DNA from: Candidatus Poribacteria bacterium
GTDB lineage: Bacteria; Poribacteria; WGA-4E; WGA-3G
DNA: 64,000 nucleotides
Assembly: GCA_028821605.1 (NCBI GenBank)
Contig: JAPPFM010000054.1
Location: forward strand, 1-64,000
Direction: 5' to 3'
Below the pieces are notes generated by a model. The model searched no databases. It worked only from the letters and a program-made list of their open reading frames with translations, and was not told the DNA's origin. Below are positions 3,226 through 17,116 of the stretch, in pieces (the first letter of the stretch is position 1; every line of letters begins with the position of its first letter). The position numbers and the translations under genes were made by a program.

Positions 3226-3615
3226 ATGGAAGACTACGGGACCGTCAAACTGAGTCGCCGGGAACGGCAAATCATGGATATCGTCTATCAACACGGTCGC
3301 GTTTCCGTTGCCGATGTGCTCAAAGATCTCCCCGATCCGCCAACTTACTCTACAGTTCGGGCACTGTTGGGAATCTTGGAGGAGAAAGGGTACCTCACGC
3401 ACGAAAAAGATGGCAAACGCTATATCTATCGTCCAACGCAACCCCGCCATCTGGCGGGACGTTCCGCGCTCAAACAGATTTTTCAGACTTTTTTTGATAA
3501 ATCCATTGAGAAAACGGTTATAGCACTGGTTTCCGAAGTTGACCTCTCGGATGAGGAACTCGACCGTTTAAGCCAACTTATTGAGCAAGCGAAAAAAGGA
3601 GGCACCTCGTCATGA
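3226..3615 (+). CDS. blaI: BlaI/MecI-family transcriptional repressor
   Basis: A 129-residue winged-helix protein with the BlaI/MecI/CopY pattern. Residues 8-70 contain the helix-turn-helix and wing (ERQIMDIVY, TYSTVRALLGILEEKGYL, YIYRP), followed by a helical C-terminal dimerisation region. In known systems the repressor is inactivated by cleavage triggered by the membrane peptidase BlaR1/MecR1. Here the stop codon overlaps the start of the M56 gene (ATGA, 3612-3615), the usual coupling. The two perfect operators just upstream indicate autoregulation, and a related operator pair at 1003-1062 extends control to the TPR-TlpA gene. A ribosome-binding site AAAAGGGG lies 8-15 nt upstream. Nothing in the sequence points to beta-lactams. 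Confidence 0.95.
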   Translation: MEDYGTVKLSRRERQIMDIVYQHGRVSVADVLKDLPDPPTYSTVRALLGILEEKGYLTHEKDGKRYIYRPTQPRHLAGRSALKQIFQTFFDKSIEKTVIALVSEVDLSDEELDRLSQLIEQAKKGGTSS

Positions 3616-5981
3616 TGCGATTCATTGAGACACTCTATGCAGACCCATTGCTGAAATTTCTCGTTGACACCACGCTGAAAAGTTTGGTTATTTTCGCCGT
3701 TGCGGGTTTATTCGCATTTTGCCTCCGTCGCAAATCGGCGGCGGTGCGTGGTTTCGTTTGGAGCATGGCAATTGTCGGATGCCTCATCGTCCCACTGTTT
3801 TCTTTCGTGCTCCCGAAGTGGGAACTGGGTATTCTACCGGCAGAAGCACCAGTTTCAATTGCACAGAACCAATTGTCACCAAAGCCGGTAGCGTCAATAC
3901 CAATCACACCGACAGCCCTGCAACCCAATCTTGTGACAGATCAGAGTGGTCCCCTTACCGCACTGCATTGGACAGACTGGATGGCGATAGTCTGGGCGGG
4001 GGCTGGTTTGTTTCTTCTTATCCGTTTGATTGTTGGAATCGGTGCTGTCTGGCATATCTCTGCTCGTGGTAACAATTTTAGCCGCGCTGCCGATCAGTGC
4101 CGATCCAATTGGAACCAACGAACAAATGTCCGTCTCAGCGATAAGATTACAGTACCCATGGTTTGGGGTTTCCTACGTCCCGTAATCTTGCTGCCGGTTG
4201 ATGCGGATCAATGGCAAACCGAGCGACTTCGCGCTGTTCTCCTACACGAATTGGCACATATCAAACGATGGGATTGGACGATGCAAATGGTCACACAGAT
4301 AACCTGTGCAGTCTACTGGTTTAATCCACTCGTATGGTTTTCAGCGCATCGGATACGGATAGAAGCAGAACAAGCCTGCGATGACCAAGTGCTAAACGCT
4401 GGGTATCAATCAACCAACTACGCGCAACTTCTGCTTGATATTACACGCAATGTAAAAATAGCAAAGGTGACGGCGCGTGCGGCTGTCGCGATAGCACGCT
4501 CCTCAAAGATTGAAAGACGACTCCGAACCGTTCTCGCTGAAAATCTAAATCGGCATCCGGTGACAAAGGTTGTTGCCGGAATTGGGCTGCTCATCTTTAT
4601 CGGTTTCGCTGTCCCGATGGGAACGATGCGTTTAACACAAGCAGCGAACACAGAAGAGGTGCTGCACCAACAAATTCAGGAGACACCCCAATCGCAACCG
4701 ACACCAGAGGAAGTGCTATCGAAACCTAAAGCACACTCCCAAAACTCAGGTTTGAAGCAGGACGAGAAACACACTGAAATCTGTACCCAAAATTTGCTTG
4801 CGATTGGTAAGGCGATTCAAGCCTTCCAGAAAGAACACAACGATTTTCCTGAGTGGCTCTCAGATCTTCACCCGAAATACTTGCCAGATGCAAACAGCCT
4901 AATTTGTCCGGCGGATACCAAAGGTGGCAAGCCACTTTTTCTTATCAACGCGGATCCGAAGATGCCTGTGAGTTATGGGTACCAGTTTCACACTGGGTAT
5001 CGAGAAAGAACGCGGGAAAACCTCGCTATATATGGCGATGTCATACCACTCGCGCGTTGTCGACATCATACGAATCAATCGTTTGCTTGTCTAAACCTGA
5101 GTTTTTCCTTCAAGGTTTACCAGTCATCCAATGTCTGGGAACAAACACCGGAAGAGATGTATGGAACGCCTGAAGAAACCATCACCGCCTTAGAAGCGGG
5201 CCTTCAGCAACAACAGGAACGACAACAGGACAATGAACCTTCCTTCAATCTCTACTTTTCGCTCGTCCGTCTCTATATTGAAGTTGGACGACAGGAAGAT
5301 GCCAACAGACTTATTAATCGTTTCAAATCTGCTATAAAACCCGACGACCTTCAGGCACATTTTCTTCTCCGCACAATGCTTGAGATGGCAAACCGGGATG
5401 AAGAAGTACTTGCGGTTTTTGAGAAACTTGAGGAAAGGTATCCGGACAACTACTATGTTCTTGATGAACTCGCCCGAATTCATGAAGAACTCGGCAATTC
5501 CGAACTTGCTGAAAAATATCGGAAAAAGGTTAATCCTATGTCAGAACTGGTTGGAAAGGTTGTGCCTGACTTCACTGCAACTGACCTTGATGGGAAACCG
5601 ATTTCGCTGCAGCAATATCGCGGGAAAGTTATTCTGCTCGATTTTTGGGCAATTTGGTGCGGTTTCTGTCTCGCGGAAATGCCGAATGTGAAAAGGGTTT
5701 ATGATACCTATAAAGATCAGGGATTTGACATTATCGGAGTTAACCTGGACACCGATGAAAGGAGACTGCGAAACTACCTCAAGGAGAATGACATCCAGTG
5801 GCGGCAAATTTTCAGCGGACAAAAATGGAAAAGTCCTCTTGTCCAACAGTATCATATTCGTTCCATTCCTGCCCCGTGTCTCATCGCCAAAGACGGCACA
5901 TTAATCTCAAGCGAAGCCAGAGGGGTGAAATTAGAACAACTTGTAGCAGAAGCACTCAAGGATAAGACCGGGAATGAATAG
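3612..5981 (+). CDS. BlaR1-like M56 membrane metallopeptidase with TPR-TlpA thioredoxin ectodomain
   Basis: A 789-residue fusion. The N-terminal third is an M56 peptidase with membrane segments near residues 24-38, 48-66 and 122-145, the zinc motif HELAH at 212-216, a downstream IEAEQACDD (E251/E253 as candidate third ligand), and a last membrane helix near 315-332. In BlaR1 a penicillin-binding domain would follow. Here there is instead a segment like the four downstream proteins: a pseudopilin-like stretch with C at ~389 and CPAD at ~432, TPR-like helices (~500-630), and a TlpA domain with W682-C683-G-F-C686. By analogy with BlaR1 the ectodomain would sense an external signal and the peptidase would relieve BlaI repression. 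The redox-active sensor is inference. It starts inside the blaI stop codon. Confidence 0.92.
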   Translation: MMRFIETLYADPLLKFLVDTTLKSLVIFAVAGLFAFCLRRKSAAVRGFVWSMAIVGCLIVPLFSFVLPKWELGILPAEAPVSIAQNQLSPKPVASIPITPTALQPNLVTDQSGPLTALHWTDWMAIVWAGAGLFLLIRLIVGIGAVWHISARGNNFSRAADQCRSNWNQRTNVRLSDKITVPMVWGFLRPVILLPVDADQWQTERLRAVLLHELAHIKRWDWTMQMVTQITCAVYWFNPLVWFSAHRIRIEAEQACDDQVLNAGYQSTNYAQLLLDITRNVKIAKVTARAAVAIARSSKIERRLRTVLAENLNRHPVTKVVAGIGLLIFIGFAVPMGTMRLTQAANTEEVLHQQIQETPQSQPTPEEVLSKPKAHSQNSGLKQDEKHTEICTQNLLAIGKAIQAFQKEHNDFPEWLSDLHPKYLPDANSLICPADTKGGKPLFLINADPKMPVSYGYQFHTGYRERTRENLAIYGDVIPLARCRHHTNQSFACLNLSFSFKVYQSSNVWEQTPEEMYGTPEETITALEAGLQQQQERQQDNEPSFNLYFSLVRLYIEVGRQEDANRLINRFKSAIKPDDLQAHFLLRTMLEMANRDEEVLAVFEKLEERYPDNYYVLDELARIHEELGNSELAEKYRKKVNPMSELVGKVVPDFTATDLDGKPISLQQYRGKVILLDFWAIWCGFCLAEMPNVKRVYDTYKDQGFDIIGVNLDTDERRLRNYLKENDIQWRQIFSGQKWKSPLVQQYHIRSIPAPCLIAKDGTLISSEARGVKLEQLVAEALKDKTGNE

Positions 5982-6586: not shown

Positions 6587-7891
6587 ATGAAAGCAATTTT
6601 GACCGTGGCGATGATCCTGAGTTTACTGATAACTTCTGCGAACGCAGATACACCTGCGGAAAAGCCGAGTGAAGATCTCACCGAGGCACAGAGCCAGAGA
6701 AACATTGAAATCTGCACACAAAATTTGGTGGCGATTGGCAAGGCGGTTGAAGCCTATAAGAAAGAACACGGCGATTTTCCAGAGTGGCTATCGGAACTCC
6801 ATCCGAAGTATTTGCCAGATGCGAATCTCTTGCTGTGTCCCGCAGATGAATTGGGTGGCAAGCCAGTCTTTACAAGCAACGCGGACCCGAAAATGCCTGT
6901 GAGTTACGGGTATCAGTTTCACCCTGAATATCGAACAATGAAAAGTGAAGAACGTGTAGTGTATGGGGACGTTATACCCCTGGCTCGTTGTCGGCATCAT
7001 AAGAATCAAGCGTTTACGGTTCTAAACTTGAGTTTCGCTTTTAAAGTATTTTGGTCATCGGGTGTGTACACATCAGAAGAGATATATGGTAGTCCCGAAG
7101 CAGCTATCACTGCTCTTGAAGAGACACTTGAACGACACCCAGATGATCCTCGTTTCTTTGAAATCTATCCGCGGCTTATCAGTCTCTATACTAAAGTAGG
7201 AAACGAACAATCTGCAAACGCCATCGTTGAGCGTCTCAAGTCATACAAGACAACAGACATTGATTATTATCGAATGCTATTCGAAGTGCTTGCGAGAGCC
7301 GAGCGATATGAGGAAATGCTTGAGATTTTTAAGGAGGCGGAGCAGCAGCTTCCCGATGCACAACCTATCCATGCGAGACTTGCCTACATCTATAGGAAAT
7401 TAGGAAATACTGAACTTGCTGACGTGTATGACCGCAAGGCTGATCCTAAATATGAATTGTGGGGAAAATCGGTGCCTGACTTTTCCGCAATCGATCTCGA
7501 CGGGAATCCGATCTCATTGCAAGACTATCGCGGAAAAGTCGTTTTGCTCGATTTTTGGGCGGTTTGGTGTGGTCCGTGCATCGCAGAAATGCCCAACGTC
7601 AAGCAGGTTTACAATACCTATAAAGACCAAGACTTTGATATTATCGGGGTCAGCCTTGATGATGAGGAACCGAAACTGCGAGACTACATTAAGGAGAACG
7701 ACATCCAATGGCGGCAAATTTTCGATAGAGCAAGGGGTGAAGATTCTCTGGTCCGGCAATACGGTATCCGTGGTATTCCAGCACCGTGGCTTATTGATAG
7801 AGATGGTAAATTAATCACGCATAAAGCGAGAGGTGAAGATTTAGAACGGCTTGTGGTGGAAGCACTCAAGGATAAACCAGAAGACCGATAG
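6587..7891 (+). CDS. Exported pseudopilin-like/TPR/TlpA thioredoxin protein, paralogue 1
   Basis: A 434-residue protein with a 20-residue Sec signal peptide (ending ITSANA before DTPAEK). The mature protein repeats the M56 ectodomain. First comes a segment like major pseudopilins (NLVAIGKAVEAYKKEHGDFP, then C84-P-A-D) with C43 and C84 as a possible disulfide. TPR-like helices follow at about 155-290, and then a TlpA domain with W327-C328-G-P-C331 and a cis-Pro loop GIPAPW. It should be periplasmic or surface-exposed and thiol-active. The start follows AAAAGGAG by 9 nt. The short leader (from GAAATATTCAATACTATTT at 6538) recurs before paralogues 3 and 4, so gene and leader were duplicated together. 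The substrate is unknown. Confidence 0.9.
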   Translation: MKAILTVAMILSLLITSANADTPAEKPSEDLTEAQSQRNIEICTQNLVAIGKAVEAYKKEHGDFPEWLSELHPKYLPDANLLLCPADELGGKPVFTSNADPKMPVSYGYQFHPEYRTMKSEERVVYGDVIPLARCRHHKNQAFTVLNLSFAFKVFWSSGVYTSEEIYGSPEAAITALEETLERHPDDPRFFEIYPRLISLYTKVGNEQSANAIVERLKSYKTTDIDYYRMLFEVLARAERYEEMLEIFKEAEQQLPDAQPIHARLAYIYRKLGNTELADVYDRKADPKYELWGKSVPDFSAIDLDGNPISLQDYRGKVVLLDFWAVWCGPCIAEMPNVKQVYNTYKDQDFDIIGVSLDDEEPKLRDYIKENDIQWRQIFDRARGEDSLVRQYGIRGIPAPWLIDRDGKLITHKARGEDLERLVVEALKDKPEDR

Positions 7892-7906
7892 CCGTATTTA
7901 CCGAAA

Positions 7907-7928
7907 AGGCGCGGCTCCAACCGCGCCT
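7907..7928. repeat. GC-rich palindrome after paralogue 1
   Basis: An 8-bp perfect stem AGGCGCGG/CCGCGCCT closes a 6-nt loop. There is no clear T-tract, so it is either a weak terminator or one of the many short hairpins of this genome. A hairpin of the same geometry lies at 35376-35397. It falls in the 204-bp spacer between paralogues 1 and 2, the longest spacer inside the array. Confidence 0.7.
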
Positions 7929-8095
7929 ATAACACCCGATTAAAGCCAGACTTCTAACTAAAATACCTGTTGGAAAAGAATAACCGATTGATTTTGTTGA
8001 ACAATGGGTTATATTATTTTCCAAGTTTTCACGAAACTCCAATGTATAAAACACACAAGACTGCAGTACCCCGAACAAACAGAGGAGCGTACCAA

Positions 8096-9415
8096 ATGAA
8101 AACAATTTTGACCTTAGGAATCGTGTTGAGTTTGTTGATGACTTCTGCGAACGCAGATACACCTGCGGAAAAGCCGAGTGAAGATCTCACCGAGGCACAG
8201 AGCCAGAAAAACATTGAAATCTGCAAGCAGCATTTTCTTGAAATTCGCAAGGCGATTCAGGCATACAAAAAGGAACACGGGGATTTCCCAAAGAGTCTCT
8301 CAGAACTTCACCCGAAATATTTGCCAGATGCAAACCTTTTGCTTTGTCCTGCAGATAAAGAGGGCGGCAAGCCAATCTCTTATTGGAACGCAGACCCGAA
8401 AATGCCTGTGAGTTATGGGTATGAGTTTCTTCCTAAAAACCGAGAGAAGAAAAATGAAACCCGTTTTGTGTATAGCGATAACATACCGCTTGTCCGATGT
8501 CTACATCACATCAACCCGGATAAAGTCTCTAAAGAAGGTCTGAACTTGAGTTTTTCCTTGAAAATTTACAAGTCAGGTTTTGATTGGAGCTCCGAAGATA
8601 TATACGGTAGTCCTGAAGCCGCTATTGCTGCCTTTGAAAACGCACTTTCACAACACCCAGATGATCGGCGTTTCTTTGATCTCTATCCGATACTTGTCGT
8701 ACTCTACACCAAGGTCGGAAACGAAAAATCAGCGGATGCCCTGATTGAGCGTTTCAAGTCACCAAGCATGATGCCAGACAATAAGGGGTACCGCTCAGTG
8801 TTCGGGAAACTTAGGCGCGTGGGCCTCTATGAGGAGCTGCTTGAGATTTTTAAGGCAGCTGAGCAGCGGCAGCCCGACGAGGAGGTTATCCTCTTTCGCC
8901 TTGCCTACATTTATGAGAAATTGGGCAATACTGAACTCGCCGAAGTTTACTATCGGAAGACCGATCCCAAATATGAATTGTGGGGAAAATTGGTGCCCGA
9001 CTTCTCTGCGACTGACCTTGATGGCAAACCGATTTCGCTGCAGCAATATCGTGGAAAAGTCGTCTTGCTCGACTTTTGGGGAGTCTGGTGTGGTTTCTGC
9101 ATTGACGAAATGCCCAATCTCAAAAAAATCTACGACACCTATAAAGACCAAGGGTTTGACATTATCGGTGTTAGTCTTGACGATAAGGAAGCAGTACTGC
9201 GGGACTATATTAAAGAGAACGACATCCAGTGGCGGCAGATTTACAGTGGCAAAAGGTGGGAGGACGATCCACTTGCACAGCAGTTTAAAATTACGAGTGT
9301 TCCATCACAGTGGCTTATTGACAGAGATGGCAAATTAATCACGCATAAGGCGAGAGGAGAAAAGTTGGAAGGTCTCGTCGTGGAAGCCCTCAAGGACAAA
9401 GCCGAGAATGAATAG
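8096..9415 (+). CDS. Exported pseudopilin-like/TPR/TlpA thioredoxin protein, paralogue 2
   Basis: A 439-residue member of the array with the same order: signal peptide (MKTILTLGIVLSLLMTSANA), pseudopilin-like segment with two cysteines (EICKQH and LLCPAD), TPR-like helices, and a TlpA domain. The active site is W331-C332-G-F-C335, with Phe in place of the usual Pro between the cysteines. The frame is open from 7970, but ATG at 8096 is chosen because the signal peptide begins there and AGAGGAG precedes it; the upstream extension would be unrelated to the family. The DNA is near-identical to paralogue 1 over the first 40 codons. It may share the operon promoter of blaI. Confidence 0.9.
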   Translation: MKTILTLGIVLSLLMTSANADTPAEKPSEDLTEAQSQKNIEICKQHFLEIRKAIQAYKKEHGDFPKSLSELHPKYLPDANLLLCPADKEGGKPISYWNADPKMPVSYGYEFLPKNREKKNETRFVYSDNIPLVRCLHHINPDKVSKEGLNLSFSLKIYKSGFDWSSEDIYGSPEAAIAAFENALSQHPDDRRFFDLYPILVVLYTKVGNEKSADALIERFKSPSMMPDNKGYRSVFGKLRRVGLYEELLEIFKAAEQRQPDEEVILFRLAYIYEKLGNTELAEVYYRKTDPKYELWGKLVPDFSATDLDGKPISLQQYRGKVVLLDFWGVWCGFCIDEMPNLKKIYDTYKDQGFDIIGVSLDDKEAVLRDYIKENDIQWRQIYSGKRWEDDPLAQQFKITSVPSQWLIDRDGKLITHKARGEKLEGLVVEALKDKAENE

Positions 9416-9523
9416 CCTAATTTGTGTCTTATAATCAAGCGTTTACTTAAACCCAAGTAAGTTCCCAGATATGGGAAACGTTCAATACTATTTCGTCAGA
9501 AATCTGAAAAGGAGAATACTGAA

Positions 9524-10843
9524 ATGAGATCAATTTTGACTGTGGCAATCGTGCTGAGTTTATTGATGACTTCTGCGAACGCAGATACATCTGCTGAAAA
9601 ACCGAGCGAAGATCTGATAACGGAGCAGCATGAGAAAAATATCGAACTTTGCACGCAAAATTTAGTCGCGATAGGTAAGGCGGTTGAAGCCTATAAAAAA
9701 GAACACGGCGATTTTCCTGAGTGGCTCTCAGACCTTCACCCGAAATATTTGCCAGATGCGAATCTCTTGCTATGCCCAGCAGATGAAGAGAGTGGCAAAC
9801 CACTTTTTTCCAGCACTACAGATCCGGAAATGTCCGTAAGTTATGACTACCAATTCCACCCTGAGAATCGAGAGGGGAGAAATGAAGAACGTTTGGTGTA
9901 TGGCGATGTTATACCGCTTATCCGATGTTTCCACCACCTAAATGAAGATTTTGAAGGAGACCGTCTAAACTTGGGTTTTTCCTTGAATACTTACAGGTCA
10001 GTTGCTAATTGGAAATACGTGCCGGAAGATATGTACGGTAGCCCCGAAGCCGCGATTACTGCCTTTGAAAAAGCACTTGCACAACACCCGGATGATCGGC
10101 GTTTCTTCGATCTCCATCCGATGCTTGTCGTCCTCTACAACAAAGTAGGAGATGAACAATCCGCAGATGCCATGATTGAGCGTCTCAAGTCAGGCAGGGT
10201 CCCAGATATTAAAGGATATCGCTGGGTGCTTAGGATACTTGCAACGGCGGGGTTATATGAGGAGCTGCTTGAGATTTTTAAGGTGGCTGAACAGCATCAT
10301 CCGGACGACGGACGTATCCTTGAAAGACTCGCCTACATTTATGAGAAATTAGGTAATACTGAACTCGCCGAAGTTTATTGGCGGAAATCTGATCCCAAAT
10401 ATGAATTGTGGGGAAAACCTGTGACAGATTTTTCCGCAACCGACCTTGATGGTAAGTCTATTTCGCTAAAGGACTATCGTGGGAAAGTCGTTTTGCTTGA
10501 CTTTTGGGGCGTGTGGTGTGGTCCGTGCATCGCCGAAATGCCCAACCTTAAAAGGGTTTACGCTACCTATAAGGATCAGGGATTTGACATCATTGGGGTC
10601 AGTCTTGATGATGAGGAATCGGCACTGCGGGACTATATTAAGGAGAACGACATCCAGTGGCGGCAGATTTACAGCGGTGAAAGGTGGGAGAACGATCCAC
10701 TCGCACAGCAGTTTAAAATTACCGGTGTTCCGGAACCGTGGCTTATTGATAGAGATGGCAAATTAATTTCGCATAAGGCGAGGGGGGAGAAGTTAGAAGG
10801 TCTCGTCGTGGAGGCACTCAAGGACAAAACCGAGAATGAATAG
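9524..10843 (+). CDS. Exported pseudopilin-like/TPR/TlpA thioredoxin protein, paralogue 3
   Basis: A 439-residue member of the array: signal peptide ending TSANA, pseudopilin-like segment with cysteines in ELCTQN and LLCPAD, TPR-like middle, and a TlpA domain with W331-C332-G-P-C335. The C-terminal 170 residues are nearly the same as in paralogue 2, including GERWENDPLAQQFKITGVP. The start is preceded by AAAAGGAG at a 9-nt distance. The roughly 108-bp spacer before it and the 110-bp spacer after it are almost identical to each other, including the hairpin TTACTT-N6-AAGTAA, which points to a recent duplication of a unit of about 1.43 kb. Confidence 0.9.
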   Translation: MRSILTVAIVLSLLMTSANADTSAEKPSEDLITEQHEKNIELCTQNLVAIGKAVEAYKKEHGDFPEWLSDLHPKYLPDANLLLCPADEESGKPLFSSTTDPEMSVSYDYQFHPENREGRNEERLVYGDVIPLIRCFHHLNEDFEGDRLNLGFSLNTYRSVANWKYVPEDMYGSPEAAITAFEKALAQHPDDRRFFDLHPMLVVLYNKVGDEQSADAMIERLKSGRVPDIKGYRWVLRILATAGLYEELLEIFKVAEQHHPDDGRILERLAYIYEKLGNTELAEVYWRKSDPKYELWGKPVTDFSATDLDGKSISLKDYRGKVVLLDFWGVWCGPCIAEMPNLKRVYATYKDQGFDIIGVSLDDEESALRDYIKENDIQWRQIYSGERWENDPLAQQFKITGVPEPWLIDRDGKLISHKARGEKLEGLVVEALKDKTENE

Positions 10844-10953
10844 CCTAATTTGTGTCTTGTAATCGAGGGTTTACTTAAACCCAAGTAAGTTCCCATAGAT
10901 ACGGGAAATGTTCAATACTATTTCATAAGAAATTTGAAAAGGAGAATACTAAA

Positions 10954-12270
10954 ATGAAAGCAGTTTTGACTATGACAATGATGCTGGGTTTACTGATAAC
11001 TTTTGCGGATGCACATCCACTTGGAGAAAAACGCAGCGGAGGTGTGATAACGGAACAGGAAGAAAAAAACTTTAAACTTTGCACACAAAATTTGGTTGCG
11101 ATTGGTAAGGCGGTTGAAGCCTATAAGAAAGAACACGGCAACTTTCCAGATTGGCTCTCAAATCTTCATCCGAAATATTTGCCAGATGCCGACATTTTCC
11201 TTTGTCCAACAGACAAGTTGGGTGGCAAGCCAATTTTTACACGCAACGCAGACCCGAAGATGCCCGTGAGTTATAGCTACTATTTCCGCCCTAACAATCG
11301 AGCGCAGATAAAAGAAGACCGTTTCGTGTATGGTGATGTCATACCGCTTGTCGGATGTCAACATCACCTGTTCAATGAAGACAGAGAATGTCTATACTTG
11401 AGTTTTTCCTTGAACGTTTACGAGTCACATATTAATTGGCACTACGCGCCGGAACATACGTACGGCAGCCCCGAAACCGCTATTACTACCTTTGAAAACG
11501 CACTTGCACAATACCCGGATGATCGGCGGTTCTTTGATTTCTACCCACTACTTCTTGCACTCTACACCAAGGTCGGAAACGAAGAATCCGCAGATGCCAT
11601 GATTGAGCACCTCAAGTCAGCAGACATGATACCAGACGATGAGGGTTACTACTCAGTGCGCGATATACTTAAGGAGTCGGGACTCTTTAAGGAAATGCTT
11701 GAGATTTTCAAGGCAGCTGAGCAGCGGCAGCCGGACGCGGAAATTATCCTCGGGAGACTTGCCTGGATTTATGAGAGATTGGGCAATACTGAACTCGCCG
11801 AAGTTTATTATCGGAAGACCGATCCCAAATATGAATTGTGGGGAAAACCCGTGACAGACTTCTCTGCGACTGACCTTGATGGCGCACCGATTTCGATGCA
11901 GCAATATCGTGGAAAAGTTGTCTTGCTCTACTTTTGGGCAGCGTGGTGTGGCTTCTGCACTGATGAAATGCCGGATATCAAAAGGGTTTATGACACCTAT
12001 AAAGAGCAAGGATTTGACATCATCGGGGTCAGTCTTGATGATACGGAAAAGGAACTGCGGGACTACATCAAAGAGAATGACATCGAATGGCGGCAAATTT
12101 TCGATAACACAAGGGGTGAAGATTCTTTGGTCCAGCAATACGGTATCCGTGGTACTCCAGCACCGTGGCTTATTGATAGAGATGGCAAGTTAATTTCGCA
12201 TAAGGCGAGAGGAGAAAAATTAGAAGGTCTCGTCGTGGAAGCACTGAAAAACAAATCCGCGGACCAGTGA
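10954..12270 (+). CDS. Exported pseudopilin-like/TPR/TlpA thioredoxin protein, paralogue 4
   Basis: A 438-residue member of the array with the family architecture and a somewhat more diverged signal peptide (MKAVLTMTMMLGLLITFADA). The pseudopilin-like segment keeps cysteines in KLCTQN and FLCPTD. The TlpA active site is W331-C332-G-F-C335. The tail is a mosaic: its thioredoxin C-terminal part (DNTRGEDSLVQQYGIRGTPAPW) matches paralogue 1, not paralogues 2 and 3, which suggests gene conversion within the array. The ribosome-binding site AAAAGGAG and the leader are shared with paralogue 3. The gene is followed 6 bp later by dispersed repeat copy B. Confidence 0.9.
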   Translation: MKAVLTMTMMLGLLITFADAHPLGEKRSGGVITEQEEKNFKLCTQNLVAIGKAVEAYKKEHGNFPDWLSNLHPKYLPDADIFLCPTDKLGGKPIFTRNADPKMPVSYSYYFRPNNRAQIKEDRFVYGDVIPLVGCQHHLFNEDRECLYLSFSLNVYESHINWHYAPEHTYGSPETAITTFENALAQYPDDRRFFDFYPLLLALYTKVGNEESADAMIEHLKSADMIPDDEGYYSVRDILKESGLFKEMLEIFKAAEQRQPDAEIILGRLAWIYERLGNTELAEVYYRKTDPKYELWGKPVTDFSATDLDGAPISMQQYRGKVVLLYFWAAWCGFCTDEMPDIKRVYDTYKEQGFDIIGVSLDDTEKELRDYIKENDIEWRQIFDNTRGEDSLVQQYGIRGTPAPWLIDRDGKLISHKARGEKLEGLVVEALKNKSADQ

Positions 12271-12571: not shown

Positions 12572-12619
12572 ACCCATACTAATTCACCATAAATCACCCT
12601 AACAACAGGAGTGGAGATA

Positions 12620-14506
12620 ATGATAGACCTTCGTAACGTGCTAAGTACTTCAGCAACTGTTCCAGTGCAGGCGCATTGGGATCGGATCGAGAATACAGCA
12701 AATAATCTGCAGTGGGCAACAGCAGAAAAGTTTAATCGATCCAAAGCACAATGGCATGAACCGGTAGATATGGCGTGGGAACAGTGGTTGGCGTTATTCA
12801 ACCCCGGACCTGCACAGCCATTGAAACACTACAGCACAACGGATTTCCAAGTCTTTCTCCCGCCATCAACCGCTAACGTTGGGGATGTTTGGGACTTGGA
12901 GCCGGAGGGGATTCTCCCCTTTCTCTGTCAGTTTCATCCAGGCGCAACAATGAATCTCAGACACGGTCAGAACGGTGCAAAGGCGTGCTTACGGGCAATT
13001 TCATCCGAATATGCTGATATTGTCTTCCGAATCCATGCGCGCTTCATATTGGACACGTCCATCGGTGCCTATTTGAGACCGGCACAATTTACTGGACATC
13101 TCGTCATCAACCGCAAGAGTGGAACGATCTGTCAATGGACGCTATCGCTTCCACCCCGCAACAGCAATGTAGATATCGGAGCATTTAGAACTGCCGATAT
13201 AGGGTTTGTGCCTCGCATGGAACTCTGCAGTTTATCGGAGACGCAGCCAGAATCAATTGCTTGGGAAACTGCCATCACTGCAGAAGAAGCTGAGAGGAAG
13301 TTTCAGGAGGTGCTCTACAAATTCGCTGAAATTGAGTGGACTCCCATTGAAGATGCGGTTGAACGCGCGAAAGCATCGAATCACCCGATTCATGCAGTCC
13401 TTTTATTCGGTGCACTTGACGATGAATCCTGCTGAGGGTCGGGCAAAAGTTTGAGAGCGGGTCCGCTCTCCTCACCGAAAATTATTAAGTTGCTCAACAC
13501 GCACTTTGTGAACGTCTGGGTCTTGCTCAGGGATCTGCCTGAGCTGCAAGTGGGTGCCAAAGGTGCAAATGCAGCTGCCTTGGCAACGAAACTCCGACAA
13601 CATTACACCGATTCTGTGGATATTCTGACACTCACGCCCGACTTGGAAGTGCTCGGACATCTACACAATATGAGTCTGTTTCATCCGTATTATCTACCTC
13701 GCAGTGAGCGGATACCTCGGTATTTAGAAATGTTAAAGTCGTCTGCGGGGGTGGAAGTTGCGGCACAAAAGCCGAGCGAAAAACTCAACGAGGCAAACAT
13801 TGAAAAATCTATCGCCGATTTGGAAGCGAGGCTTCAGCAACACCCAGATAATGAAAGTTTTTTCTATATCTACCGCATACTTATTCGTCTCTATATTAAA
13901 GCTGGACGGGAAAACGATATAGATCAACTTATTGAGCGTTTCAAAATTGTCAACGCTAAAACCCTTATTGCCCAGATTTATGAAGAGTTAGGCAACACCG
14001 AACTTGCAATGGAATACCGCAGCAAGGTTACGCCTCCGTTGGCGTTGCTTGGAAAACCTGTTCCGGATTTTTCTGCGACCGATCTTGATGGCAAACCGAT
14101 TTCGCTCCAGCAATATCGCGGGAAAGTCGTCTTACTCGATTTTTGGGCGGTCTGGAACAGTTTCTGCATCGGTGATATACTGAATGTCAAAAGGATTTAC
14201 GACACCTATAAAGATCAGGGATTTGAGGTCATTGGGGTTAGCCTTGATACTGATGAAACGAAGCTGCGAAACTTCCTCAAGGAAAATGACATCTCTTGGC
14301 GGCAGATTTACAGTGGTCTGGAAAGACAGTGTCCGCTTGTGAAACAGTCTGATGTTAAATCTATTCCAGCCCGGTGGCTTATTGATAGAGATGGCACGTT
14401 GATCGCCCATGAAGCCAACCATAAGTTAATCTCCAGCGAAGGTAGACAGGCGGATTTAGAGAAGTTGGTGGCAGCGGCGGTGGCGGATAAACCTAAGAAC
14501 CAATAA
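12620..14506 (+). CDS. SelenoN-like selenoprotein (UGA = Sec272) fused to TPR-TlpA domain
   Basis: A single 628-residue gene read through an in-frame UGA at 13433-13435. The flanks, FGALDDESC-U-GSGKSLR then LLNTHFVNVWVLL, match what I know of the vertebrate SelenoN active site (GALDDQSC-U-GSGRTLR). An upstream block (LRPAQFTGHLVINRKSGT, DIGFVPRMEL) also matches SelenoN. After the SelenoN thioredoxin-like region (to ~375) comes a linker like the post-signal region of the neighbouring paralogues, a short TPR-like part and a TlpA domain. In that domain the motif is W512-N-S-F-C516, so the first active cysteine is lost. No signal peptide is evident. ATG at 12620 follows AGGAG by 7 nt. An annotation ignoring Sec would split it into 12620-13435 and 13451-14506. 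Confidence 0.93.
13433..13474 (+). promoter_or_regulatory. Candidate bacterial SECIS element
   Basis: The UGA at 13433-13435 is followed by a perfect 7-bp stem, GAGAGCG (13453-13459) with CGCTCTC (13464-13470), closing a GGTC loop whose first base lies 24 nt after the UGA end. TGAG at 13433-13436 can pair with CTCA at 13471-13474 as a lower stem. Bacterial SECIS elements are hairpins inside the coding region just 3' of the UGA, with a G at the start of the apical loop. This one fits in position, size and loop base. SelB binding is inference. Confidence 0.85.
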
Positions 14507-15640: not shown

Positions 15641-17116
15641 GGAAACCCCCTGCCTTTAGGCGGGGGAGGAAAATCCGCCCTCGTGTGTTAGACCACAACT
15701 TGTGGCATGAAAATAATTGTTTTTTTTGACAAAAAGTGTATAATTATACTATCGTGTGGGAGGCAACTAACAACCTACACAACCAAGTGTAGCCTTGTCT
15801 CCCAACCGACTGTTGTTAGCGGTTAAAACACGATACACGATAGTCGAATGAAACGCACTTACAAATATCGAGTATACCCTACCAGTGATCAAGAACGCTG
15901 GCTTTATGCCGAGTTGAAGCACCAGAAACGCTTGTATAACTACATGCTTCAGATGCGTTCGCAAATGTGGGAATATGGTAAGGTGTCGGTATCGAAGTAT
16001 GACCAGATAAACCACCTTGCGAAACTGCGTGAAAACTCGCATTATTCCGATCATCCGCAGGATATGCAGGTATCTACAATTAAGCGCGTTGATGTGGCTT
16101 ATGACCACTTCTTTGATAGGTGTAAAGACCCTAAAGAGAGAAAGAAAGGACACCCCCAATTCAAGCGTTCTGTCCGTTCTGTGTCTTGGAGTCTGCGTAA
16201 ATACAAAGTCAAAGATAAAGCGACAGGTACATTTAAACGCGTCCGTCAAAATCCTATCCGTGAAACAGGTTCGCGTTTGAATCGGTTGAAAGTCCCAAAT
16301 CTTGGTGAAGTGAAAGTCAGAAGGCATCGTCCCTTCAGTGGAGACCCGAAAGAGGTCACGTTGAAAAAGACGGCGCGTGGCTGGTATTGCTTTATCGTTT
16401 GCGAAGTGCCTGAGACGCTGAAATGTGTTCCGAAATCCGCGTGGGGTGTGGATGTCGGGACGCAAGACTTTCTGACGACTTCCACGGGTGAGAAGAGACC
16501 TAACCCTTGCTTTTACCGCCAAGCCGAGCGTAAACTTGCGAAACTTCAGCGTGATTTGTCGCGTAAGCAATACAAAAGCCGCAGATGGTATAAGGCGAAA
16601 GACGCTTTGGCGAAACAAGCGAATATTGTTGCCTGCCAACGACTTGATTTTATCGCAAAAACAGCGTATTGGCTTTTTCACCATAAAGGCGTTGATGCCG
16701 TTGTTGCTGAGAAACTTAAACCAAGTAACATGGTCAAGAACCGGTACCTTGCCAAGTCTATCTCTGATGCTTCTTGGGGTATGTTCTTTGACTGGTGTGC
16801 TTGGGCTGCCAAACGCGATGGTAAACATTTCCATCAAGTGCCAGCACACCACACAAGTCAAACCTGTTCGGCATGTTGTCAAAAATCGGCTATTAGACTG
16901 AAGTTGTCCGATCGTGTGTTCCATTGTGCATTCTGTGGTTTTAAACTTGACCGCGACCACAACGCGGCTCTAAATATCCTACATAGGGCGGCTTGCGCCC
17001 TTCGTGGAGAGGTATGGGATGCCATCCTCTGTGAAACGAGAAACCCACTACTATTGCAGGCTTGTTGGGGTTAACACCTCTACAAGCCCCCACGCTTTAG
17101 CTGGGGGTACTTGACA
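15641..17116 (+). mobile_element. IS605-group element carrying only tnpB
   Basis: The left end has a hairpin-forming CCCCCTGCC-TTTA-GGCGGGGG near 15646-15666. The right end has CCCCCACGC-TTTA-GCTGGGGG near 17086-17107 and ends at TTGACA (17111-17116). These subterminal hairpins are typical of IS200/IS605-group ends, and the right-end region is where the omega RNA of TnpB systems is normally encoded. No tnpA (Y1 transposase) is present, so movement would need a transposase in trans. Between the left hairpin and tnpB lies a nested inverted repeat (ACTATCGTGT at 15748-15757 with ACACGATAGT at 15834-15843). Outer limits are set by comparison with the relic at 60.2-60.9 kb and are approximate. Confidence 0.8.
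15848..17074 (+). CDS. tnpB: TnpB RNA-guided nuclease (IS605 OrfB family)
   Basis: A 408-residue TnpB of full length. The N-terminus (MKRTYKYRVYPTSDQ) is the usual strand-rich start. The RuvC-like active site is visible as D202 (GVDVGTQ), E288 (VVAEKLKPSNM) and D370 (LDRDHNAALN). A zinc ribbon (CSACC...CAFC) lies between the last two. TnpB uses the omega RNA from the element right end to cut DNA next to a transposon-associated motif and helps keep the element at its donor site. All catalytic residues are present, so it may be active. There is no strong ribosome-binding site; the ATG follows the structured leader directly. Confidence 0.92.
   Translation: MKRTYKYRVYPTSDQERWLYAELKHQKRLYNYMLQMRSQMWEYGKVSVSKYDQINHLAKLRENSHYSDHPQDMQVSTIKRVDVAYDHFFDRCKDPKERKKGHPQFKRSVRSVSWSLRKYKVKDKATGTFKRVRQNPIRETGSRLNRLKVPNLGEVKVRRHRPFSGDPKEVTLKKTARGWYCFIVCEVPETLKCVPKSAWGVDVGTQDFLTTSTGEKRPNPCFYRQAERKLAKLQRDLSRKQYKSRRWYKAKDALAKQANIVACQRLDFIAKTAYWLFHHKGVDAVVAEKLKPSNMVKNRYLAKSISDASWGMFFDWCAWAAKRDGKHFHQVPAHHTSQTCSACCQKSAIRLKLSDRVFHCAFCGFKLDRDHNAALNILHRAACALRGEVWDAILCETRNPLLLQACWG

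Follow-up and report, generated by a model that had tools for sequence, protein, structure and literature searches.

The window analysed here is a 64,000-nucleotide stretch of contig JAPPFM010000054.1 from a Candidatus Poribacteria bacterium. On its forward strand, positions 12620-14506 form a frame that in read-through translation encodes 628 amino acids followed by a stop, and that contains a lone in-frame TGA at codon 272. A preliminary description of this DNA had noted two same-phase frames parted only by a UGA at 13433-13435, within the motif ALDDESC-U-GSGKSLR, and both are as described there. The product joins a SelenoN-like part, through a linker and a helical segment, to a C-terminal TlpA/ResA-like domain (Table 1); an alternative in-frame start, GTG, lies at 12611. 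Hydropathy analysis revealed neither a signal peptide nor a membrane segment in residues 1-215. The missing signal peptide, the NSFC motif of the TlpA domain and a 12-copy family in the genome go beyond the preliminary description.

A Pfam search of the whole protein returned AhpC-TSA/Redoxin in the TlpA part (E 3e-18) and a weak TPR match. No Pfam family matched residues 1-271 at E up to 1, and no NCBIfam model matched the first 378 residues. Because neither collection models the SelenoN-like family, automatic annotation probably splits or truncates such genes at the UGA.

The array is led by genes for a BlaI-type repressor and a BlaR1 M56 peptidase-TPR-TlpA protein (3226-5981), an arrangement that suggests a signal-controlled redox operon. 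Shortly downstream of the locus, at 15848-17074, lies an IS200/IS605 OrfB (TnpB-like) gene with a Cas12f-like TNB domain.

Table 1. Features of the fusion gene and of the array to which it belongs
Feature	Position	Strand	Description	Basis
BlaI-type repressor, array head	3226-3615	+		Pfam Penicillinase_R
BlaR1 (M56 peptidase)-TPR-TlpA protein	3612-5981	+	TlpA closest in genome to that of the fusion	Pfam
Four TPR-TlpA paralogues	6587-12270	+	6587-7891, 7970-9415, 9524-10843, 10954-12270	ORFs, Pfam
AGGAG, probable ribosome binding site	12607-12611	+	8 nt 5' of ATG 12620	Sequence reading
SelenoN-like domain-TPR-TlpA fusion gene	12620-14506	+	628 aa, Sec = residue 272	Translation, orthologues, dN/dS
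N-terminal beta-rich domain, SelenoN-like part	12620-13264	+	Residues 1-215	AlphaFold model, hydropathy
Thioredoxin-fold domain, SelenoN-like part	13274-13747	+	Residues 219-376	Model and structure matches
In-frame TGA, selenocysteine codon	13433-13435	+	Sec272, Cys271 just before	Translation, homologues, dN/dS
bSECIS-like hairpin	13453-13470	+	7-bp stem, GGUC loop 13460-13463	Comparative tests
Linker AAQKPSEKLNEANIE	13745-13795	+	Resembles post-signal-peptide region of TlpA paralogues	
Helical TPR-like segment	13790-14047	+	Residues 391-476	Pfam, structure model
TlpA/ResA-like thioredoxin-fold domain	14048-14503	+	Residues 477-628	Pfam, sequence and fold matches to ResA
Degenerate CxxC, NSFC	14156-14167	+	First Cys gone, Cys516 retained	

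Decoding of the in-frame UGA

Sequence evidence strongly supports selenocysteine (Sec) as the residue encoded by the UGA, which would be decoded by SelB and tRNA-Sec under the direction of a hairpin. The preliminary description had made the same assignment, and a full Sec machinery, conservation at the codon level and a hairpin under synonymous constraint bear it out. The host is a sponge-associated bacterium whose genome (6.0 Mb, 60 contigs, 98% complete) holds all the components for which that description had advised a search: tRNA-Sec (78 bits) next to selB (353 bits), selA (600 bits) and selD (359 bits). The selD gene carries an in-frame TGA of its own, and its frame 5' of the TGA reads MKQEKIRLTATVKCAG-U-ASKLAPG, where Sec usually stands in SelD. 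In the phylum, selA scored above the cut-off in 72 of 85 genomes, and several others are incomplete bins.

The codon is conserved well beyond the fusion gene. Among 157 distinct family proteins read from their loci, 156 have TGA and one has GGC at the Sec position, and seven more loci that the motif search had overlooked likewise have TGA. Homologues with an ordinary stop, which would have spoken against the assignment, were not found, although a subfamily with Gly in place of Sec exists. Cys at this position, for which the preliminary description had advised looking, was never seen among the members examined; one apparent case (L136, among the best 80 contig matches) proved at the DNA level to be a broken copy lacking the downstream part. 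Across 16 aligned fusion orthologues, dN/dS within the SelenoN-like part was 0.182 before the UGA and 0.184 after it; the values were 0.442 for the linker plus TPR and 0.155 for TlpA, so that of the four parts TlpA experiences the strongest purifying selection.

The hairpin starts 17 nt 3' of the UGA and its four-base apical loop, at 24 nt from the UGA, contains GGU. Over the 157 homologues, synonymous-codon constraint was highest at codons +6 to +11 from the UGA and slight a few codons on: Gly+9 is GGT in 123 of 123, Leu+11 is CTC in 154 of 157, and Arg+7 is encoded by AGG or AGA only. Nearly all members have a stem of at least 6 pairs and a loop GGUC, AGGU or AGUU at nucleotides 26-31, counted from the start of the UGA. 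Ala+8 is encoded by GCG where Pro stands at +10 (57/57) and by GCA where Val, Ala, Glu or Ile stands there, so that its codon tracks the +10 residue as two stem registers need; consistently, pairing within a subfamily is good in its own register but poor in the alternative one. Cell pairing was 0.966 as compared to a mean of 0.936 and a maximum of 0.955 in shuffles, a small excess in counts that are confounded by subfamily membership and by coding constraint, the stem lying within conserved codons; the synonymous-site result therefore weighs most. Single-sequence folding of the region 3' of the UGA was not significant (z -0.68), and no Rfam family was matched over the window. The position of the hairpin and its GGU loop fit a bacterial SECIS, with a putative function in SelB binding and recoding.

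If the UGA were a normal stop, the gene would encode a 271-residue protein ending in DESC, and the downstream sequence would be either a TlpA gene in its own right or a remnant in decay. A mechanically called ORF of 351 aa from TTG 13451 suits this reading, but it is extremely improbable: SelenoN-like sequence spans the UGA with equal dN/dS on either side, the UGA occupies the same codon in 156 of the 157 members (most of which lack TlpA), the hairpin is under synonymous constraint, and the genome has the full Sec machinery. Equally improbable is the insertion of another residue such as Gly, through a changed code or a suppressor tRNA. Gracilibacteria read UGA as Gly, and in some homologues GGA or GGC stands in place of the Sec codon. 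However, because 6 of the 18 genes in the window and 45 of 144 in the family end in TGA as an ordinary stop, the code is not reassigned, and a changed genetic code was rejected. This reading would also leave the hairpin and the Sec machinery without a role, the UGA is limited to one codon beside the active-site Cys, and the genome's own Gly (GGC) copy, C2:8569, has the loop AACU where others have GGU. With the UGA read as Sec, the gene encodes a real, conserved bacterial selenoprotein.

The SelenoN-like family

SelenoN (SELENON, SEPN1) is a human muscle-disease protein and a selenoprotein of the ER, and its molecular reaction is still debated. The human sequence that we aligned is provisional; it matched the SelenoN-like part at 33% over 250 aa (E 1e-42), with a profile score of 190 bits. 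The preliminary description had proposed homology to SelenoN, including a block upstream of the UGA. Both proposals agree with the alignment to the provisional sequence, through the shared SCUG centre, the extended alignment, and a score of 96 bits for the upstream segment alone. The SelenoN-like part is in all likelihood homologous to the SelenoN catalytic core, and its likeness to the human protein should be treated as a lead, since the human sequence is provisional.

The principal challenge to this homology accepts the selenoprotein and the fusion, but holds that the N-terminal part belongs to a separate thioredoxin-fold family, unrelated to SelenoN, that converged on SCUG. Such convergence would agree with a lack of EF-hand and membrane anchor and with the family being named by neither Pfam nor NCBIfam, and the comparison sequence was a provisional one. 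Against it, similarity extends well beyond the motif: the upstream and downstream segments of the provisional human sequence score 96 and 33 bits with the family profile, while the best of 300 shuffles reached about 2 bits. We consider convergence improbable and retain homology to the SelenoN core.

This genome has 12 copies of the SelenoN-like part, of which 11 carry UGA and one carries GGC (Gly). In the phylum, the family occurs in 65 of 85 genomes, all in one order, and a single genome can have as many as 17 matches. A search of 387 genomes, with scoring of the top five candidates in each, found no match in the 302 outside the phylum. Among the matches listed, the relatives of the fusion gene are Candidatus Poribacteria genome bins; 130 lower-ranked relatives lie beyond these and may include other phyla. 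Viral contigs gave no match to two patterns, one of which read the Sec position as Cys and was blind to UGA. Eleven UGA copies of one family in a single genome are unusual for bacteria, as organisms with six or more selenoproteins counted as rich in a bacterial survey (PMC1794560).

Gly, encoded by GGA or GGC, occupies the Sec codon in a subfamily comprising C2:8569 (L030:8569), L147, L153 and L154. Besides the genome's own GGC copy, three genomes have GGA, in a small related clade. The UGA members L125 and L049 nest within the Gly clade, so the change from Sec to Gly occurred more than once or was reversed. Hairpins are kept in the GGA members and point to UGA ancestry. As the subfamily shows, copies can be retained in the absence of Sec.

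Members also differ in the domains around the shared core. A hydrophobic N-terminal segment precedes the domain in 36 of 145 members, and three exported Sec copies (L131, L133 and L134, locus coordinate 5822) have a lipobox-like LQSC following that segment; some family members may thus be lipoproteins. In L120:5708, which has the Sec codon, a sigma-factor-like (RNA-polymerase) domain of about 200 residues, a probable membrane helix and a SelenoN-like selenoprotein follow one another in one frame. Most paralogues (for example L028, L029 and L031) end in a domain of about 130 residues that is beta-rich by appearance; the tested pieces of these C-terminal domains gave no convincing Pfam match. 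Two copies in this genome have an extra VMNAFVEAFKNLD domain. SelenoN-like selenoprotein genes also stand in tandem, four in a row at C1:31385-37990 and two at C16:35218-38406, and such genes probably spread by local duplication. A broader scenario combines an expanded selenoprotein family in the Poribacteria, diversified by domain shuffling, with a cytosolic fusion of two thioredoxin folds and an exchange of the SelenoN gene between this lineage or a relative and early eukaryotes; we regard the whole as possible but rather doubtful.

Probable origin and redox centre of the fusion

The orthologues L063-L080 keep the same frame and UGA, and also the TlpA module where the contig extends far enough. 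In the tree, the 17 fusion rows form one clade with support 100/97; single-domain copies, among them C55:20143, branch closest to it. Synteny is conserved as BlaR1-TlpA, TlpA paralogues, fusion and a TIM-barrel gene. The earliest fusion branch is L075, whose coordinates match the G029 locus, of a different genus in the same family; the fusion is therefore older than the genus. The 628-residue TPR-TlpA fusion put forward in the preliminary description is thus a single clade common to at least two genera. The further suggestion that it arose inside this array is plausible as to source, but the event is old and not local. Within the genome, the array's own BlaR1-TlpA gene has the most similar TlpA (66%), and the linker, which varies in length among fusion members, resembles the post-signal region of the TlpA paralogues; on these similarities, the TlpA module likely came from this array. 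As far as checked, a conserved TPR-TlpA fusion to a SelenoN-like part is new.

An AlphaFold model of the SelenoN-like part (pLDDT 89, pTM 0.84) consists of a beta-rich N-terminal domain followed by a thioredoxin fold. For the latter, VIA-align returned 3f9u, AGR3, DsbH, ERp19 and AGR2 with Z between 12.6 and 11.7 and an rmsd of 2.3-3.1 across 113-120 residues; Foldseek coverage was of the thioredoxin domain only, and a PDB sequence search with the SelenoN-like part found no relative. The active loop Ser-Cys-Sec-Gly-Ser-Gly-Lys is predicted to lie in a thioredoxin fold of the AGR/ERp19/DsbH type. Sec272 would take the place of the attacking first Cys of CxxC and Gly275 would replace the second, a placement read from the motif against an ERp19-type WCGACK and not from a structural residue map. 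The working redox pair would most likely be a vicinal Cys271-Sec272 selenenylsulfide, to judge from motif and model; thioredoxin reductase has a vicinal Cys-Sec selenenylsulfide.

In the TlpA domain, CGFC occurs in L075 only, and in 15 of 16 fusion proteins the first Cys has become N or H (N/H-x-F-C), while Cys516 is invariant in all 16 and the fold too is strongly conserved. A module that, coming from a neighbouring paralogue, retained the second Cys alone could not perform a TlpA reductase cycle, and it would most likely bind a partner or substrate, or else supply the Sec centre with a single-Cys partner. A self-contained redox relay, in which a substrate is reduced at the Sec centre, with Cys516 resolving the selenenylsulfide or passing it on, would draw on the invariance of Cys516 alongside loss of its partner in 15 proteins, and on the lowest dN/dS of the four parts in TlpA (0.155). 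Opposed to it are the position of Cys516, a second Cys and normally buried, and a flexible linker of variable length, poorly predicted with pLDDT down to 43. We hold the relay to be unlikely, though worth keeping in mind.

Very probably, then, the gene encodes a 628-residue selenoprotein that joins a SelenoN-core homologue to TPR-TlpA and would be a cytosolic Cys-Sec thiol oxidoreductase. Lacking a signal peptide, it should act in the cytosol, in thiol-disulfide exchange or peroxide reduction. We infer its activity, redox partner, substrate and location, and place its role no more closely than thiol or selenol redox chemistry. With a natural UGA, a bacterial SECIS and neither anchor nor EF-hand, the family would allow the isolated catalytic core to be produced in E. 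coli as a genuine selenoprotein, open to structure and kinetics, and would offer a bacterial handle on the poorly understood human SelenoN.

Comparison with SelenoN and other known systems

Bacterial SelenoN homologues may have been mentioned before. In the open literature, as distinct from subscription papers and preprints, we found no paper that joins selenoproteins with Poribacteria or SelenoN with a bacterial homologue. SelenoN orthologues are described in all vertebrates and some invertebrates (2026 review, PMC12839072) and in algae (PMC7539508), and SelenoN goes unmentioned in a survey of 25 bacterial selenoprotein families (PMC1794560).

Like SelenoN, the window protein has an S-C-U-G centre (DESC-U-GSGK, in nearly all homologues) with Sec encoded by UGA, and is similar over about 250 residues to the provisional human sequence, including the block FRIHA.F...PAQFTG. 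The bacterial family is almost exclusively of the Sec form, as is reported of algal SELENON (PMC7539508). In contrast to animal SelenoN, no EF-hand was found by Pfam up to E 1 in residues 1-271 or the full protein, and where SelenoN has a type II anchor and a lumenal catalytic domain, neither the window protein nor its fusion orthologues have a hydrophobic N-terminus. We therefore class it as a homologue of the catalytic core of SelenoN and not as an animal-type SelenoN. It differs further in its in-frame bacterial hairpin in place of a 3'UTR SECIS, its C-terminal TPR-TlpA, and its multi-copy occurrence, with up to 17 matches per genome.

The hairpin resembles a bSECIS of the E. coli fdhF type in its place right behind the UGA and in its four-base apical loop containing GGU, but one family uses two stem registers (GGUC or AGGU/AGUU) and some loops have GU only (AGUU). 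The thioredoxin-fold domain is like those of AGR2/AGR3, ERp19 (TXNDC12) and DsbH (Z 11.7 to 12.5 over 113-120 residues); identity is 16-21%, the N-terminal beta-rich domain is unaligned, and these proteins have CxxC or CxxS-type centres where the window protein has C-U-G-S-G. The C-terminal Redoxin/AhpC-TSA module is of the TlpA/ResA kind, with ResA structures as its best sequence and fold matches; unlike those oxidoreductases, it has NSFC for CxxC and no export signal.
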